The translations under genes and the position numbers were made by a program. Under the pieces are notes generated by a model. That model did no database searches, was not told where the DNA came from, and was given only the letters and a program-made list of their open reading frames with translations. This document shows, piece by piece, positions 20,657 to 26,753 of a stretch of 29,431 bases of DNA (the stretch's first letter is position 1; every line of letters starts with the position of its first letter). The stretch is from a virus, in IMG/VR virus record IMGVR_UViG_3300032006_000059, positions 1-29,431 of that record; one strand, 5' to 3'.

Positions 20657-20663
20657 CCTCCTT
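20657..20663 (-). promoter_or_regulatory. Strong Shine-Dalgarno overlapping the capsid stop codon
   Basis: AAGGAGG lies ten bases before the ATG of the 272-aa gene and overlaps the TAA of the major capsid gene. Most other starts in the window lack such a site, so this marks the gene as highly translated and tied to capsid-gene translation. Confidence 0.85.
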
Positions 20664-21810
20664 ACTCAGATACAGTGAAGGCTGTTGTGATGAAGTCCTT
20701 GTTCAAGTTCGCAAAGCCGGCATAAAGTTGCCATATAAGAATGATAAACCTACTAAAGTCATCATTATTATTTATTAGAACTTGAGCGTTTGGACCACCA
20801 ATACCTACACCTATAGCCTGAGGGCCGAAGAATAGACCAGCAGGGGTTGTATGTGAAACAGCTCCAGCACCGTCATTAATATTGACAGTAATGGACTTGC
20901 TTGGGAAGTTGGTAGACTCGAAGAATCTTACTCCTTCAAAGACGAAACCGCTTGGCATGACTGGCTCTCCAGCGACAAACTGAGCTTGTCCGAACTGTCC
21001 ACCACCATATATAGCTTGGTTAGGTTGGCCTGCACCCATTAACGGCGAACCTTGTCCAGGCATACCAGGGTAGCGAGCAACTTCACGGAAGCCTTGATCT
21101 GCACGTAGATCCTTCATGAATGAAGGGTCAGCGATACAACGGTAATATCCGTCCTCGAAAACAGGAACGTGACGCTTACGTAAACTCTTAACTACTTCAA
21201 GTAAGTCAGTTTTTACATTGAACTTGAAACGCTCAGAAGCATATTCTGTAGCTGTATAAGTAGTTAGAGTAGTTGAGTTTGTTTTAGCCTTACCATTTGG
21301 ATAGTAGTATCCACCTTGTGAATCGCTACTTTGTCCTCGTGATTCACTCTTAAATAACTCATCAATGAAGACTCTATCTCTCCATCTTCTGTAATCATCT
21401 AAAAGAGTGAGCGATCCAATGCTCTGGTGGAACATGTTTAAGTTCCCAGTATCGAGCAATAGTCGCTGTGCTGTCATCAACGTCTCACGAGCAATTTTGA
21501 AAGTGCTAGGGAGGTTGGTGTTGTTTGGATCGGCTGGACCTGTATACTCACGAAGAGATACAAGAACTTTATCCTTAACAATAGACCTGCTGTTTGCTGT
21601 ACCTATGGTTTGATCCTGAGTACGCTCACGGCTTGTCTTTGTTCCTGGATTGCCGAAGAACCTGTAACGGTCAAGTTGAACCGTTTGTCCAGGTTGTTTC
21701 GTGAAGTCATGAACCACTACAGGCTCAGATGCCATCTCCACGATATAAGCTGGGTGGGGCCTATAAAGCTCCGCACCTAACAGCTTCGGAAAATCATTAT
21801 CAATAAACAT
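20662..21810 (-). CDS. Major capsid protein, N4-gp56-like (382 aa)
   Basis: The protein resembles the N4-gp56 type of major capsid protein (HK97-type fold). An N-terminal region has FTKQPGQTVQLDRYRFFGNP, comparable to the 'GDTVxFxRY' strand of the family. A central helix runs through STFKIARETLMTAQRLLLD. RKRHVPVFEDGYYRCIADPS then aligns with the 'PPFEDGYYVAVIHP' strand, and a Gly-rich stretch and LYAGFANLNKDFITTAF close the protein. It follows a scaffold-like gene, as expected. More G/C-rich third positions than in the flanking fibre genes suggest high expression. Its stop codon overlaps the ribosome binding site of the next gene. Confidence 0.78.
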   Translation of the reverse strand: MFIDNDFPKLLGAELYRPHPAYIVEMASEPVVVHDFTKQPGQTVQLDRYRFFGNPGTKTSRERTQDQTIGTANSRSIVKDKVLVSLREYTGPADPNNTNLPSTFKIARETLMTAQRLLLDTGNLNMFHQSIGSLTLLDDYRRWRDRVFIDELFKSESRGQSSDSQGGYYYPNGKAKTNSTTLTTYTATEYASERFKFNVKTDLLEVVKSLRKRHVPVFEDGYYRCIADPSFMKDLRADQGFREVARYPGMPGQGSPLMGAGQPNQAIYGGGQFGQAQFVAGEPVMPSGFVFEGVRFFESTNFPSKSITVNINDGAGAVSHTTPAGLFFGPQAIGVGIGGPNAQVLINNNDDFSRFIILIWQLYAGFANLNKDFITTAFTVSE

Positions 21811-21934: not shown

Positions 21935-22111
21935 TTAAGATCTGTTATATGCAGAATAAGGACCTGGAGGTAATGCTCCATTAGGGTGTCCAATGGCTCC
22001 CATATTCTGTCCATGAGGCTGTAATGCATTTTGTGAAGGAGGTTGCATTGCCATCAATCTTTCGGCTTCTTGAGCCATTAAAAATGCTTCTAATGCTTTT
22101 TGTTCGTCCAT
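21935..22111 (-). CDS. Small protein between scaffold and capsid (58 aa)
   Basis: This 58-aa protein begins with a short acidic/Met-rich helix (MDEQKALEAFLMAQEAERLM) followed by a Pro/Gly/Asn-rich tail (GAIGHPNGALPPGPYSAYNR). The position between the scaffold-like gene and the major capsid gene fits a small morphogenesis factor. The helical start and disordered tail loosely resemble the style of the scaffold itself. There is no good Shine-Dalgarno. Support is the coherent protein character and conserved-looking position; I recognise no family. Confidence 0.5.
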   Translation of the reverse strand: MDEQKALEAFLMAQEAERLMAMQPPSQNALQPHGQNMGAIGHPNGALPPGPYSAYNRS

Positions 22112-22167: not shown

Positions 22168-23259
22168 TCACTCCATTACGAGGAGCTTTTGACGGAAGAT
22201 CTCAGGATTTTGCTGGGCAGCATTTAAATACTTCCACGCATTCTGAGGATCTCTATCTGACGCGCTTCCAAAGCTATTCCAGAAGTCAGTAGGTGTTCCC
22301 TTTGCTTGTGGGCTTGGAGGTGCAGGCATTTGAGGTCTCTGTGGGGCAGGTCTCTGGCCAGCAGCAGCTTGAGCAGCAGCTTGTTGTTGTCTAGCTGCAG
22401 CAACTTGTTGTGCAGTTGGTGCTGGTCTTCCAGGTGCTTGTGTCGCTGGACGTTGGCCTACTGTGCCACCTGGAGCAGTTCTCGCAGCTTGTGCAGCTTG
22501 AGCCTTTGCTACAGGATATGGACCCTGTGGACCGAAAAACTTAGTTGTATAATTTGCAAGGATATTTGGGTTAGTAAGAATTTGCTTATATGCTTTATGC
22601 TCAGTATTCAACTGCTTAAGTAAATTAACTCCTTTCTGTAATTGACCAGTAGTCTTAGATAAAGAATCTTCTAGCTTACATGAATAGTCATTAAGAATAG
22701 CAGGTGCGTCAGGACCAAAATGATCAACGACTTGAAGACTTGCCTCGCTTATTTTTGGAGCCTGTTGTTGACTCTGAAGAGAAGTTTGGGAAGAGCCGTT
22801 GGAGAAGCCCTGGTTGCTGTTGATCCCAGGAGTAGAGGTCGGCGCTACCGCGTTGTTGAATGGGGTTGTTTGTTGGGAAGCGTAACTGCCCTGGCCTACT
22901 GCTGGAGTCTGAGTCGATTGTTGACCCTGGAACGGGAACTGGACTGGAGAACTCAGGAGTCCGACGACCTTGTTGAACGCCTCCTTGTATGGATTGTCCT
23001 GTTGTGGGGTTGCCTGGGGTGTCTGGTAGCTTGACGGTGTAGGGCTGTATTGGGGTGTCTGTACGCCCATCTGCGCTTGCACTGCTGGTGCTGGTGCCGC
23101 CATCGGCTGGGAGGTTGCCACCCATTGGGGAGACGTTCCCACTATTGGTGCCTGTGCCGCTGATTGAGCCACGGGCGCTACCGGAGCCCCGAAGCTGGTC
23201 GGCTGGGTCTGGGATACTTGGGGTGCCGATTGGGTCGGAACTGCGATATCGTCCGCCAT
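22168..23259 (-). CDS. Scaffold-like protein overlapping the portal gene (363 aa)
   Basis: This 363-aa protein is rich in Gln, Ala and Pro, lies between portal and capsid genes, and has the character of a capsid scaffolding protein. Residues 1-165 look mostly disordered apart from NPYKEAFNKVVGLLSS at 89-104. A helical core follows at about 168-245 (KLEDSLSKTTGQLQKGVNLL, KQLNTEHKAYKQILTN). Then comes a Gln/Ala/Pro-rich stretch and a helical C-terminus, FWNSFGSASDRDPQNAWKYL. The first 178 codons overlap the portal C-terminus in the +1 frame. An AAGGA lies eight bases before its ATG, inside the portal gene. Function is inferred from place and composition. Confidence 0.65.
   Translation of the reverse strand: MADDIAVPTQSAPQVSQTQPTSFGAPVAPVAQSAAQAPIVGTSPQWVATSQPMAAPAPAVQAQMGVQTPQYSPTPSSYQTPQATPQQDNPYKEAFNKVVGLLSSPVQFPFQGQQSTQTPAVGQGSYASQQTTPFNNAVAPTSTPGINSNQGFSNGSSQTSLQSQQQAPKISEASLQVVDHFGPDAPAILNDYSCKLEDSLSKTTGQLQKGVNLLKQLNTEHKAYKQILTNPNILANYTTKFFGPQGPYPVAKAQAAQAARTAPGGTVGQRPATQAPGRPAPTAQQVAAARQQQAAAQAAAGQRPAPQRPQMPAPPSPQAKGTPTDFWNSFGSASDRDPQNAWKYLNAAQQNPEIFRQKLLVME
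22724..23259 (-). other. 536-base dual-coding overlap of portal and scaffold-like genes
   Basis: Both frames are open for about 178 codons. The scaffold ATG begins at the second base of portal codon 581. Both overlapping segments are low-complexity and probably disordered. By eye the stretch is more G+C-rich than the flanks. The portal frame ends just where the scaffold's helical core begins. The open frames and the internal Shine-Dalgarno are seen directly; translation of both is inferred. Confidence 0.75.
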
Positions 23260-25000
23260 AGGTTAATTCCTTTTGTAAATTTTCGAGTGTTCTGTATAAG
23301 AATGGAGTGAGATCCAATCTTGGGTCCGCAGCCATCGGTAAATTCGGTTGCTGCGGGTGTGGCGTTCTCATCTCTTGATTAGTTAAATCAATGAAAGCAG
23401 AGAGCGCTCTTTGTACTTCTCCAACCATTCGGAACGGATAACCAGAGAGCATCCCTGCAATCTCGTCGTCCGTTTTGGAAGGAAATAAGTACTTCAGTGC
23501 TTCTATGCTATCAACGCCTAATTCTTGTAAGTTTCTAGTAAAGATAGATTGATTCAATTTATCCTGTGCAGTATCTTCATATACAGGCCCCATCCATCTC
23601 CATAACACACTTCTGTCACCATCTGGTGCAAGGCCCACTACTCCATCAGGAATATCACCTGTTTCTAAAACCCCGTCAAGTGCTTGTTTTAACTTCTTCT
23701 CATAATTAAATTTACTTTTATCATATTTATCTACTTGTTTCTTATCATTTATATCTTCAGGTAGTACTGGATACTTAATTCCTGAAACAAATGCAAGTGA
23801 CTTCTTAAATAACTGCTCTTCTTGGAAAATTATTAATTCAAAACACTTACAAATACCATAGGTATAAAGCTGTAAACACTTCTTCTTAGCAGTAGCACTA
23901 ACACGTCCATAAGCCGATTTAATCTCAGTTGCGGTTACGTTAGAGATACTTAAGTCATCTATACCACCTAGAGCAAGACGTAATTCACTACGTAGCTGTT
24001 CAGCATACCTAGCTTGGTCAGTACTAACAGCATCTGGAGTAATGAATCCAACTCTGTCTGAAGGCTCTAAGTTCGCAATAACACGAGGTACTCTCATGCC
24101 ACTACCAGGTCTTCCTATGTAACCAGGCTGAGTCCTACTTGTAGGATCTTGTTTATACGTAGAACTAGAAAGGTTGAAATCAGATTGAAATCCAGATTGA
24201 CTTGAAATACTAGGACGTTGTACTTCACCATCTGCAGCACTTTCAACAATATCTTGCTTAGGTCGAGAAGATAATAAAGTCGGATTACCAAAGAATGATA
24301 GGTTTGCTCTGATGTTTTTAACCATCTCATCATGAGCGATTATCTGATTAGCTAACCACTCAAATTCTCCTGTACCTTCTGTACCAAATGCATCAGGATT
24401 ATTAAAAACTTCTACACAAGGAATAAATTCCATTGTGTTCTCTACTATCTTCTTATCTAACATTCCTACTTCGCTATATTCTTGCTCAAACGTTATTTCT
24501 TGTTCACTATGAAACTCTTCTATTTCAGTAGGAGTAATACGTAAACGCATATAACGCTTATCAGTATTAGTCGATAAGTTTGCATTTATCCCTTTCTTCT
24601 TTTTAACTTTATAAGGGTAGATGATAATTACTTCTTCTAAATCCCCCTCTGGTGTGTAATACGTCCTATATGCATCTTTATCAAACCAATAGATACGATA
24701 CGTTTTTCTTGAAGGTCTTATATAAAATAAACCTTTACCATAAGCTAAAAATCTATCCCAAATAGAATCTAATCTTGCATCTAACTTATTAAACTTAATT
24801 ACCTGTTGAATAAAATCAAAACGTTGCGTACCTAAATTATCTTGTTCAGGAAAGAATTCAACTCCTTGCCTTATCCCAAACATCTTCATTTGAGATAAAT
24901 GGGCATTAATCAGCATCGTATCTGCTGTGCTATTGCCATCACGGTCTATGACCGCTTTGACCATAGAATCAATTGCAGACTTAGTATTACTATCACTCAT
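22724..25000 (-). CDS. Portal protein with long disordered C-terminal tail (758 aa)
   Basis: The portal forms the dodecameric ring at the capsid vertex through which DNA passes. Position directly after the large terminase and before the scaffold/capsid genes supports this. Features are a mixed N-terminal domain with WDRFLAYGKGLFYIRP at 81-96, a central region with FEWLANQIIAHDEMVKNIRA, and a helical segment TATEIKSAYGRVSATAKKKC at 356-375 like the portal stem helices. Residues of about 590-758 are Gly/Ser/Thr/Pro-rich and end in SKNKRGKSSSR. The tail overlaps the scaffold-like gene in another frame. It starts 18 bases after the AbrB-like gene's stop. Confidence 0.75.
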   Translation of the reverse strand: MSDSNTKSAIDSMVKAVIDRDGNSTADTMLINAHLSQMKMFGIRQGVEFFPEQDNLGTQRFDFIQQVIKFNKLDARLDSIWDRFLAYGKGLFYIRPSRKTYRIYWFDKDAYRTYYTPEGDLEEVIIIYPYKVKKKKGINANLSTNTDKRYMRLRITPTEIEEFHSEQEITFEQEYSEVGMLDKKIVENTMEFIPCVEVFNNPDAFGTEGTGEFEWLANQIIAHDEMVKNIRANLSFFGNPTLLSSRPKQDIVESAADGEVQRPSISSQSGFQSDFNLSSSTYKQDPTSRTQPGYIGRPGSGMRVPRVIANLEPSDRVGFITPDAVSTDQARYAEQLRSELRLALGGIDDLSISNVTATEIKSAYGRVSATAKKKCLQLYTYGICKCFELIIFQEEQLFKKSLAFVSGIKYPVLPEDINDKKQVDKYDKSKFNYEKKLKQALDGVLETGDIPDGVVGLAPDGDRSVLWRWMGPVYEDTAQDKLNQSIFTRNLQELGVDSIEALKYLFPSKTDDEIAGMLSGYPFRMVGEVQRALSAFIDLTNQEMRTPHPQQPNLPMAADPRLDLTPFLYRTLENLQKELTYGGRYRSSDPIGTPSIPDPADQLRGSGSARGSISGTGTNSGNVSPMGGNLPADGGTSTSSASADGRTDTPIQPYTVKLPDTPGNPTTGQSIQGGVQQGRRTPEFSSPVPVPGSTIDSDSSSRPGQLRFPTNNPIQQRGSADLYSWDQQQPGLLQRLFPNFSSESTTGSKNKRGKSSSR

Positions 25001-25229: not shown

Positions 25230-26753
25230 TCAATACTCTAACTCTAGTTTTCCTCTGGTCATTAATCCATTGCATAACCAAACGAGAGCATCAACACAGT
25301 CATCATGGGAACTAACACCGAAATTTATAATCTCATCTTTTAAAGGACCAAACCTACGATATTTATTAAATATGATTTTTCTTTGCTCAAAAAGCCCCAT
25401 AATGCCTCTGAAACGTGCAACTTTATCTCCTCTGAATCCTTTTACTGCATGCCATAAAACATTGTAAAGACCATGCTCACCTTGACATATCCTTTTGAAA
25501 TCAGCTTCTAATGATGCCTGATATGCAACAGCTTCAGACCAAACATGTATAGAACTTCCTGTTGGAAAATAATTTGTTCCATCTTTATGAACAACTCCCC
25601 ATTCTTCCATCATTTCCATTAAAGCTTCTAATTTTTCTAGATTCCCCATTATCCTTAGCCTTTTACAATCAATAATATGAATTTTGTCTCCTACTCTTCC
25701 TCCCATAACAAAAACAGTGAAATCATTCTGTTCTCTTACTCCTGCTGATAAATCAACTCCTATTCCCATTGAATCAAATTCAGTTGCTATCGAACCTTTT
25801 ACTATTAAATCTGGTGATAGAGATAACTCACTTGTTTGAACGATCTGATTCTGATACTGAAAACTAAATGCAACTGGAGCTTGTCTTCTCCTATCTCGTA
25901 AATACTCTAAAGACCACATTTCTGGCCAATATGAAATCTCTTCCCCGTTCTTATCAACAGTAATAGCAGATTGTACTATCTGAACCCAATCATTTGATCT
26001 AGTAAAAGTACTTTGATGTATATCATCATGACGAAATCGAGTTCCTAAACAAATAGCTCTTCCACCTTCAAACATAGTTGGAACAATAACTGAATTCCAG
26101 TTATCTTCCATTGCCTGACGTATATCTCTATTTTTAATATCATCAGCACTTTTGATAGCGTCATCAATAATACAAAGATGTGAACGTTTAGATGTCACAG
26201 CACCTTTCAATCCTGCACAACAAACAGTAAATTCTTCTTCACCAGTAGATTTAATTCCTGCAAATTTCCAATCAATACTCCAATACTCATTTGAATTAAT
26301 TCCTTTAGCTATTTTCACCATAGGGAATATTTCTCTATACGTTTTACTCTCCTCTATGATTCTTTTAATTGCTGCACTCTTAGGTCTTGCAACATCAACC
26401 GTATATGAAATATATAAAACTTTTAATGGTTGTTTATTTACAGCATGAATTCCTACAGACCAAGCTGTATACAGACCTAAAATTGTTGACTTAGCACTTC
26501 CTCGTGGAGCTAAAATATCGATATTTGGTCCACCTATTCCAACTAAACACTCACTGTCATCTCCGGTGCATAAATAACGATGCCATTCTTTATGATGAGT
26601 TGCTGGAGGTTTATCACCAACAACATCACAGAAATATGCAAAATCTGTTCTAGCTTTCTCAACATCTACGGAAGATGTTTTTTTAACAACTTGTTGTTTA
26701 GCAGCGGCTCTCGCAGTTCTGCGATAAACGCTATAAATACTTGTACCTGCCAT
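25230..26753 (-). CDS. terL: Terminase large subunit (ATPase and nuclease, 507 aa)
   Basis: The packaging motor drives DNA into the prohead and cuts it. The ATPase half has a Walker A variant at 81-90 (LAPRGSAKST), Walker B LCIIDDA at 193-199, and GTRF at 237-240 as the coupling motif. The nuclease half (RNase H-like, Terminase_6 type) has VDLSAG with D334, a mid acidic position near E408, and SSHDDCVDALVWL with D484/D485. The length is normal for the family. The gene starts 24 bases after the small-terminase-like gene and ends 28 bases before the AbrB-like gene. Confidence 0.93.
   Translation of the reverse strand: MAGTSIYSVYRRTARAAAKQQVVKKTSSVDVEKARTDFAYFCDVVGDKPPATHHKEWHRYLCTGDDSECLVGIGGPNIDILAPRGSAKSTILGLYTAWSVGIHAVNKQPLKVLYISYTVDVARPKSAAIKRIIEESKTYREIFPMVKIAKGINSNEYWSIDWKFAGIKSTGEEEFTVCCAGLKGAVTSKRSHLCIIDDAIKSADDIKNRDIRQAMEDNWNSVIVPTMFEGGRAICLGTRFRHDDIHQSTFTRSNDWVQIVQSAITVDKNGEEISYWPEMWSLEYLRDRRRQAPVAFSFQYQNQIVQTSELSLSPDLIVKGSIATEFDSMGIGVDLSAGVREQNDFTVFVMGGRVGDKIHIIDCKRLRIMGNLEKLEALMEMMEEWGVVHKDGTNYFPTGSSIHVWSEAVAYQASLEADFKRICQGEHGLYNVLWHAVKGFRGDKVARFRGIMGLFEQRKIIFNKYRRFGPLKDEIINFGVSSHDDCVDALVWLCNGLMTRGKLELEY

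Follow-up and report, generated by a model that had tools for sequence, protein, structure and literature searches.

The portal gene and the following scaffold-like gene of the virus analyzed here share 536 nucleotides, and this stretch is very probably a true overlapping-gene region, in which, judging from sequence comparison, one message would be translated from two starts. The window, meaning the whole analyzed stretch of 29,431 nucleotides (positions 1 to 29,431 of IMG/VR record IMGVR_UViG_3300032006_000059), carries on its minus strand a portal ORF of 758 aa (22724–25000) and a scaffold-like ORF of 363 aa (22168–23259). Both were found as the first-pass annotation had described them, with an overlap at 22724–23259 (minus strand) that is shifted by one base. 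The second frame begins at position 2 of the portal Tyr581 codon (phase +1), its ATG (23257–23259, minus strand) consisting of the last two bases of that codon and the following base. The portal is divided into a folded core (approximately residues 1–570) and a disordered C-terminal tail, of which residues 581–758 lie within the overlap, while the scaffold-like protein starts with 178 disordered residues encoded in the overlap, followed by a helical core and C-terminal helices. The neighboring genes on the same strand are those of the large terminase subunit upstream (25230–26753; phrog_38, E 2.5e-76; PF17289) and of the major capsid protein downstream (20662–21810; phrog_1357 major head protein, E 1.6e-14). 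A small 58-codon ORF (21935–22111, minus strand), read by eye, is located between the scaffold-like and capsid genes and resembles in character the ORFs of 81–86 aa found at the same place in two related loci (L233 and L239).

The product of the first gene matches the virion structural protein family phrog_20475 (E 9.7e-220) and, weakly, the portal family phrog_104. Its structure model, for which rows from annotated records were left out of the alignment, is of low confidence (mean pLDDT 47). All Foldseek matches of the model in the PDB at E<=0.001 were phage portals, as were all 50 matches listed in the comparison with VIA (Z up to 13.9; 4.6 A over 268 residues). Residues 571–758 were predicted to be disordered. 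Taken together, the structure predictions support a portal fold followed by a disordered tail. No convincing homologue of the second protein was found in PHROG, Pfam or PDB, and its role is therefore one that we infer: it is probably a scaffold, considering the position of the gene, which sits between the portal and major capsid genes as scaffold genes do, and the predicted helical fold. Helices were predicted by AlphaFold at residues 90–103, 172–242 and 323–362, the protein being disordered to approximately residue 165, save for the conserved helix, and helical beyond. The portal stop had been noted to coincide with the beginning of the helical core, and its position, residue 178/179 of the scaffold-like protein, is indeed close to the predicted start of the core at residue 172.

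Relatives were collected by protein searches and comprise three clades: clade A around the window (L001–L080), clade B around Synechococcus phage S-EIV1 (L081–L161) and clade C (L235–L238 and L241–L320), in which portal identity to the window is roughly 42–48%. The overlap is kept, with phase and portal position unchanged, in 237 of the 237 loci where both genes are readable, with a length of 458–641 nt. In the 159 loci of clades A and B with a complete portal it spans 509–641 nt, with phase +1 and ATG throughout, and the scaffold start occupies a single alignment column in 157 aligned portals; in the 78 loci of clade C it spans 458–524 nt. Both in the window and in its relatives the shared length exceeds the 300-nt threshold used previously for gene pairs that overlap in different frames (PMC4875738). 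The lengths of both products, proposed earlier as something to compare in related phages, are conserved, and a relative in which one frame is broken by a stop was not encountered among 195 distinct overlap sequences (458–641 nt), where neither coding frame contains a single stop. The third frame of the same strand has a median of six stops in these sequences and never zero. Another 114 distinct portal segments, most of them on contigs that had been counted before, yielded no exception, and no family member lacking the overlap was present among the best 80 matches per scan of viral contigs and genome contigs, a depth at which rarer exceptions could be missed. The G+C enrichment of the overlap relative to its flanks, suggested earlier by eye, was measured as 0.576 for the overlap of the window vs 0.367 for its portal core, and the clade A means are 0.59 for the overlap, 0.48 for the part specific to the second gene and 0.39 for the core. 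In one further locus (L239, 6001–8393) the portal frame is broken after codon 332 and resumes in another frame, with the overlap intact, which is either a sequencing error or a real break.

Among other annotated phage records, S-EIV1 (KJ410740.1, 79,178 bp) alone matches the portal, scaffold-like and capsid proteins. The same overlap is present in its genome (554 nt) and is absent from its annotation because the annotated start of the second gene was placed at 59863, past the portal stop, giving a product of 133 aa from an open frame of 325 aa. The major capsid gene of S-EIV1 (L081, 60784–62010) also appears to be mis-annotated: the capsid protein of the window matches positions 60859–61983 on the plus strand (69.7% over 99% of its length), a region where the record has a CDS on the opposite strand (AHV82227.1) and, of the protein itself, only a C-terminal portion (AHV82228.1). 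Two clade C contigs, L237 (9883–10965) and L238, were binned as Euryarchaeota MAGs. Since they carry head genes of the S-EIV1-type phage family, and L237 also has, approximately 1.7 kb past the portal, a photosynthetic reaction centre gene (PF00124, E 2.6e-86) that looks like psbA, they are probably misbinned cyanophage contigs.

Selection was estimated pairwise, by a method modelled on OLGenie (PMC7531306), in which each change is classed as synonymous or not in each frame; no sequence was reused between pairs, which are nevertheless not fully independent by descent. Controls were the corresponding phantom frame of the portal core and a phantom frame of scaffold-only DNA. For the scaffold frame of clades A, B and C, dNN/dNS in the overlap was 0.30, 0.19 and 0.27 vs 0.67, 0.65 and 0.73 in the phantom frame of the portal core. 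For the portal frame, taken from the scaffold alignment, the values were 0.37, 0.47 and 0.30 vs 1.24, 1.37 and 1.94 in the phantom frame of scaffold-only DNA, and portal dNN/dSN in the overlap was 0.34, 0.32 and 0.34. The phantom-frame ratios are not exactly 1, and absolute values are therefore approximate. Since the ratios of the overlap are below those of the matched controls, purifying selection acts on both frames in all three clades (portal dN/dS approximately 0.3, second gene 0.2–0.3); the first-pass annotation had proposed to measure synonymous-site constraint in both frames. The diversity at the three portal codon positions changes between the core, with its usual codon pattern, and the overlap: from.14/.07/.45 to.27/.14/.25 in clade A, and from.13/.07/.45 to.24/.10/.14 in clade B. 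Variability falls at the portal third position and rises at the first, where the scaffold frame has its wobble position.

When dN/dS was followed along the overlap with clades A and B pooled, the constraint on the two frames was found to be interleaved. Portal residues 582–606 are conserved in the portal frame (0.13, with 0.34 in the scaffold frame), while residues 607–649 are loose in the portal (0.73) and tighter in the scaffold (0.25). Opposite portal residues 669–694 (portal 0.35, scaffold 0.05) is the near-invariant scaffold-frame motif NPYKEAFNKVVGLLSSPVQFPFQGQQ (22917–22995, minus strand; scaffold residues 89–114), with the NPYKEAFNKVVGLLSSPVQFPFQGQ motif and the predicted helix 90–103. 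The portal motifs RPGQLR and GSADLY..QQQPGxLxxLFPN follow at portal residues 702–739 (22784–22897, minus strand; portal 0.10, scaffold 0.33). In the last 18 portal codons (residues 740–757) the portal frame is without constraint (1.05, scaffold 0.40). In these alignments the scaffold thus has its helix motif where the portal is looser, and the portal its motifs where the scaffold is looser. Both overlapping stretches had earlier been described as low-complexity and disordered; disorder is indeed predicted for both, but neither is featureless, each having near-invariant short motifs.

The scaffold start is ATG in all 162 loci of clades A and B and in 75 of the 78 loci of clade C. In the three exceptions (L237, L303 and L315) the ATG position reads ACA and the first start is a GTG one codon later, a natural shift of the start codon. 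The ribosome binding site reported inside the portal gene was recovered as AAAAGGA 5' of the scaffold-like ATG (TACAAAAGGAATTAACCTATG), the Shine-Dalgarno-like sequence AAAAGGAAT (23266–23274, minus strand) lying within the portal codons Gln-Lys-Glu. In clade A this sequence appears to be maintained through paired synonymous choices: the Lys-Glu codons under it are only AAA-GAG (before GTA) or AAG-GAA and never AAA-GAA, unlike in the portal core, where AAA and GAA are the commoner codons. In clade B the codons are AAG-GAG throughout, and in clade C the Shine-Dalgarno matches are weaker. A scaffold-frame stop is found two codons 5' of the ATG in 151 of the 162 loci of clades A and B. RNA folding of eight 100-nt segments at the scaffold start revealed no consistent hairpin over the Shine-Dalgarno sequence, one z value being below -2 (L058), and the stability of the start region in the window is not unusual (z 0.9). 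Coupling through RNA structure at the start was rejected on the same folds. The proposed tie between scaffold and portal synthesis is not borne out: two clades have a Shine-Dalgarno sequence dedicated to the scaffold start, which in the window is not masked by any stable RNA structure. Ordinary internal initiation is the simplest reading of these sequences, and coupling of the scaffold start to portal translation is conceivable but finds no support in them.

In the window by itself the open +1 frame is only mildly unusual. It was fully open in 5% of the trials when synonymous codons were resampled with the portal's own usage (P approximately 0.05) and in 38% of codon permutations within the overlap (P 0.38), stops being few because the sequence is rich in S, G, P, T and R. 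Comparison with relatives was therefore needed. These figures are what speaks for a single functional frame, with the other kept open merely by composition, S/G/P/T/R- or A/P/Q-rich DNA having few stops. Such a reading is hardly credible against the purifying selection seen in both frames relative to phantom controls in three clades, the separate near-invariant motif in each frame and the 195 distinct sequences free of stops; the comparison across relatives excludes chance as the cause of the open frame, and the reading was rejected on the selection and the missing stops.

Programmed +1 frameshifting, which would yield the scaffold-like sequence as part of a portal-scaffold fusion and not from its own start, is also very unlikely. 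In its favor, the two genes are on the same strand in phase +1, and phage morphogenesis genes such as G/GT of lambda are known to use frameshifting, but the second gene has its own ATG in nearly all loci and a Shine-Dalgarno sequence in clades A and B, and the scaffold-frame stop preceding the ATG in most of them means that a fusion could form only downstream of that stop. Slightly less probable still is that a nucleotide-level signal, such as a packaging site or RNA structure, constrains the region instead of two proteins. The lowered synonymous diversity of the portal frame would agree with it; portal codon position 1 is, however, more and not less variable, the constraint tracks amino-acid change in each frame, and the start region of the window shows ordinary RNA stability.

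Under translation from two starts, ribosomes from the portal start would read through to give a portal with a disordered C-terminal tail of approximately 178 residues, and others would begin at the internal ATG in the frame shifted by one base, presumably by ordinary Shine-Dalgarno initiation, to give the scaffold-like protein with its first 178 residues mostly disordered. Selection, as the comparison shows, keeps both readings, and the proteins share the DNA by turns, a near-invariant short motif of binding type in one facing more tolerant disordered sequence in the other. Of the overprinting put forward earlier, functional coding in both frames over approximately 178 codons is supported by selection and by the kept lengths, while the tie of scaffold to portal synthesis is not. 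The C-termini of known portals face into the shell. The second protein is presumably the procapsid scaffold, and the two tails may meet within the procapsid. It is a tentative and rather unlikely suggestion that the portal tail motif QPGxLxxLFPN binds there to the N-terminal scaffold helix NPYKEAFNKVV.., or that both bind a common partner, thereby placing the single portal vertex, and that dual coding keeps the pair together because it makes recombination between the two genes costly.

As to which frame came first, both overlap frames of the window differ markedly in codon usage from the other genes. The portal frame is slightly nearer to the norm in most comparisons, and would therefore be the older one, a reading that codon usage slightly favours. 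Gene anatomy and a remote portal candidate favour the tail as a later extension of the portal: the second gene begins just where the folded portal ends, as a normal downstream gene would, and the candidate of Acaryochloris phage A-HIS1 ends before the tail, having a 4-nt overlap with the next gene, which is not a recognised scaffold homologue. This candidate (ORF063; L388, FN436268.1 34385–35767), whose annotation is that of a putative virion structural protein, seems to be a distant homologue of the portal family (hhalign probability 95%; E 0.09; in a small set, hmmsearch E 1.3e-4).

Overlapping genes are a known phenomenon, treated in review chiefly with regard to small viruses (PMC8227390), and the amount of overlap declines with larger virus genomes (PMC2992710, PMC4875738). 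Like Microviridae-type overprinted genes, the pair described here uses different phases of one DNA stretch for two proteins that are unrelated, and the products are disordered or of odd composition (PMC8227390). Unlike in small viruses, it is found in tailed dsDNA phages with genomes of approximately 80 kb (79,178 bp in S-EIV1), and it is a terminal overlap that joins two neighboring head genes and is kept throughout a deep family. In lambda the scaffold Nu3 is nested in C, with an in-frame overlap and shared amino acids; the scaffold-like gene likewise starts within the preceding head gene, but in phase +1 in all loci. The Rz/Rz1 lysis genes of tailed phages also have a conserved out-of-phase overlap, which is much shorter and involves membrane lysis proteins, one gene being largely nested. 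Long overlaps are thus already known, and the literature searched, a search that did not cover the S-EIV1 genome paper, appears to hold no description of a long out-of-phase portal/scaffold overlap.

Whereas discussion of long out-of-phase overlaps has mostly centered on small viruses, here approximately 460–640 bases link head-assembly genes of tailed phages. As the overlap is kept across a deep and widespread family of cyanobacterial viruses, it is old and stable and not a passing accident. It also points to a blind spot of annotation, the second gene having lost more than half of its length in the sole isolate record found. Hundreds of natural sequences are available for studying how two proteins share DNA by turns, and the two short conserved motifs can be tested as contacts in an open step of phage assembly, the incorporation of the portal.
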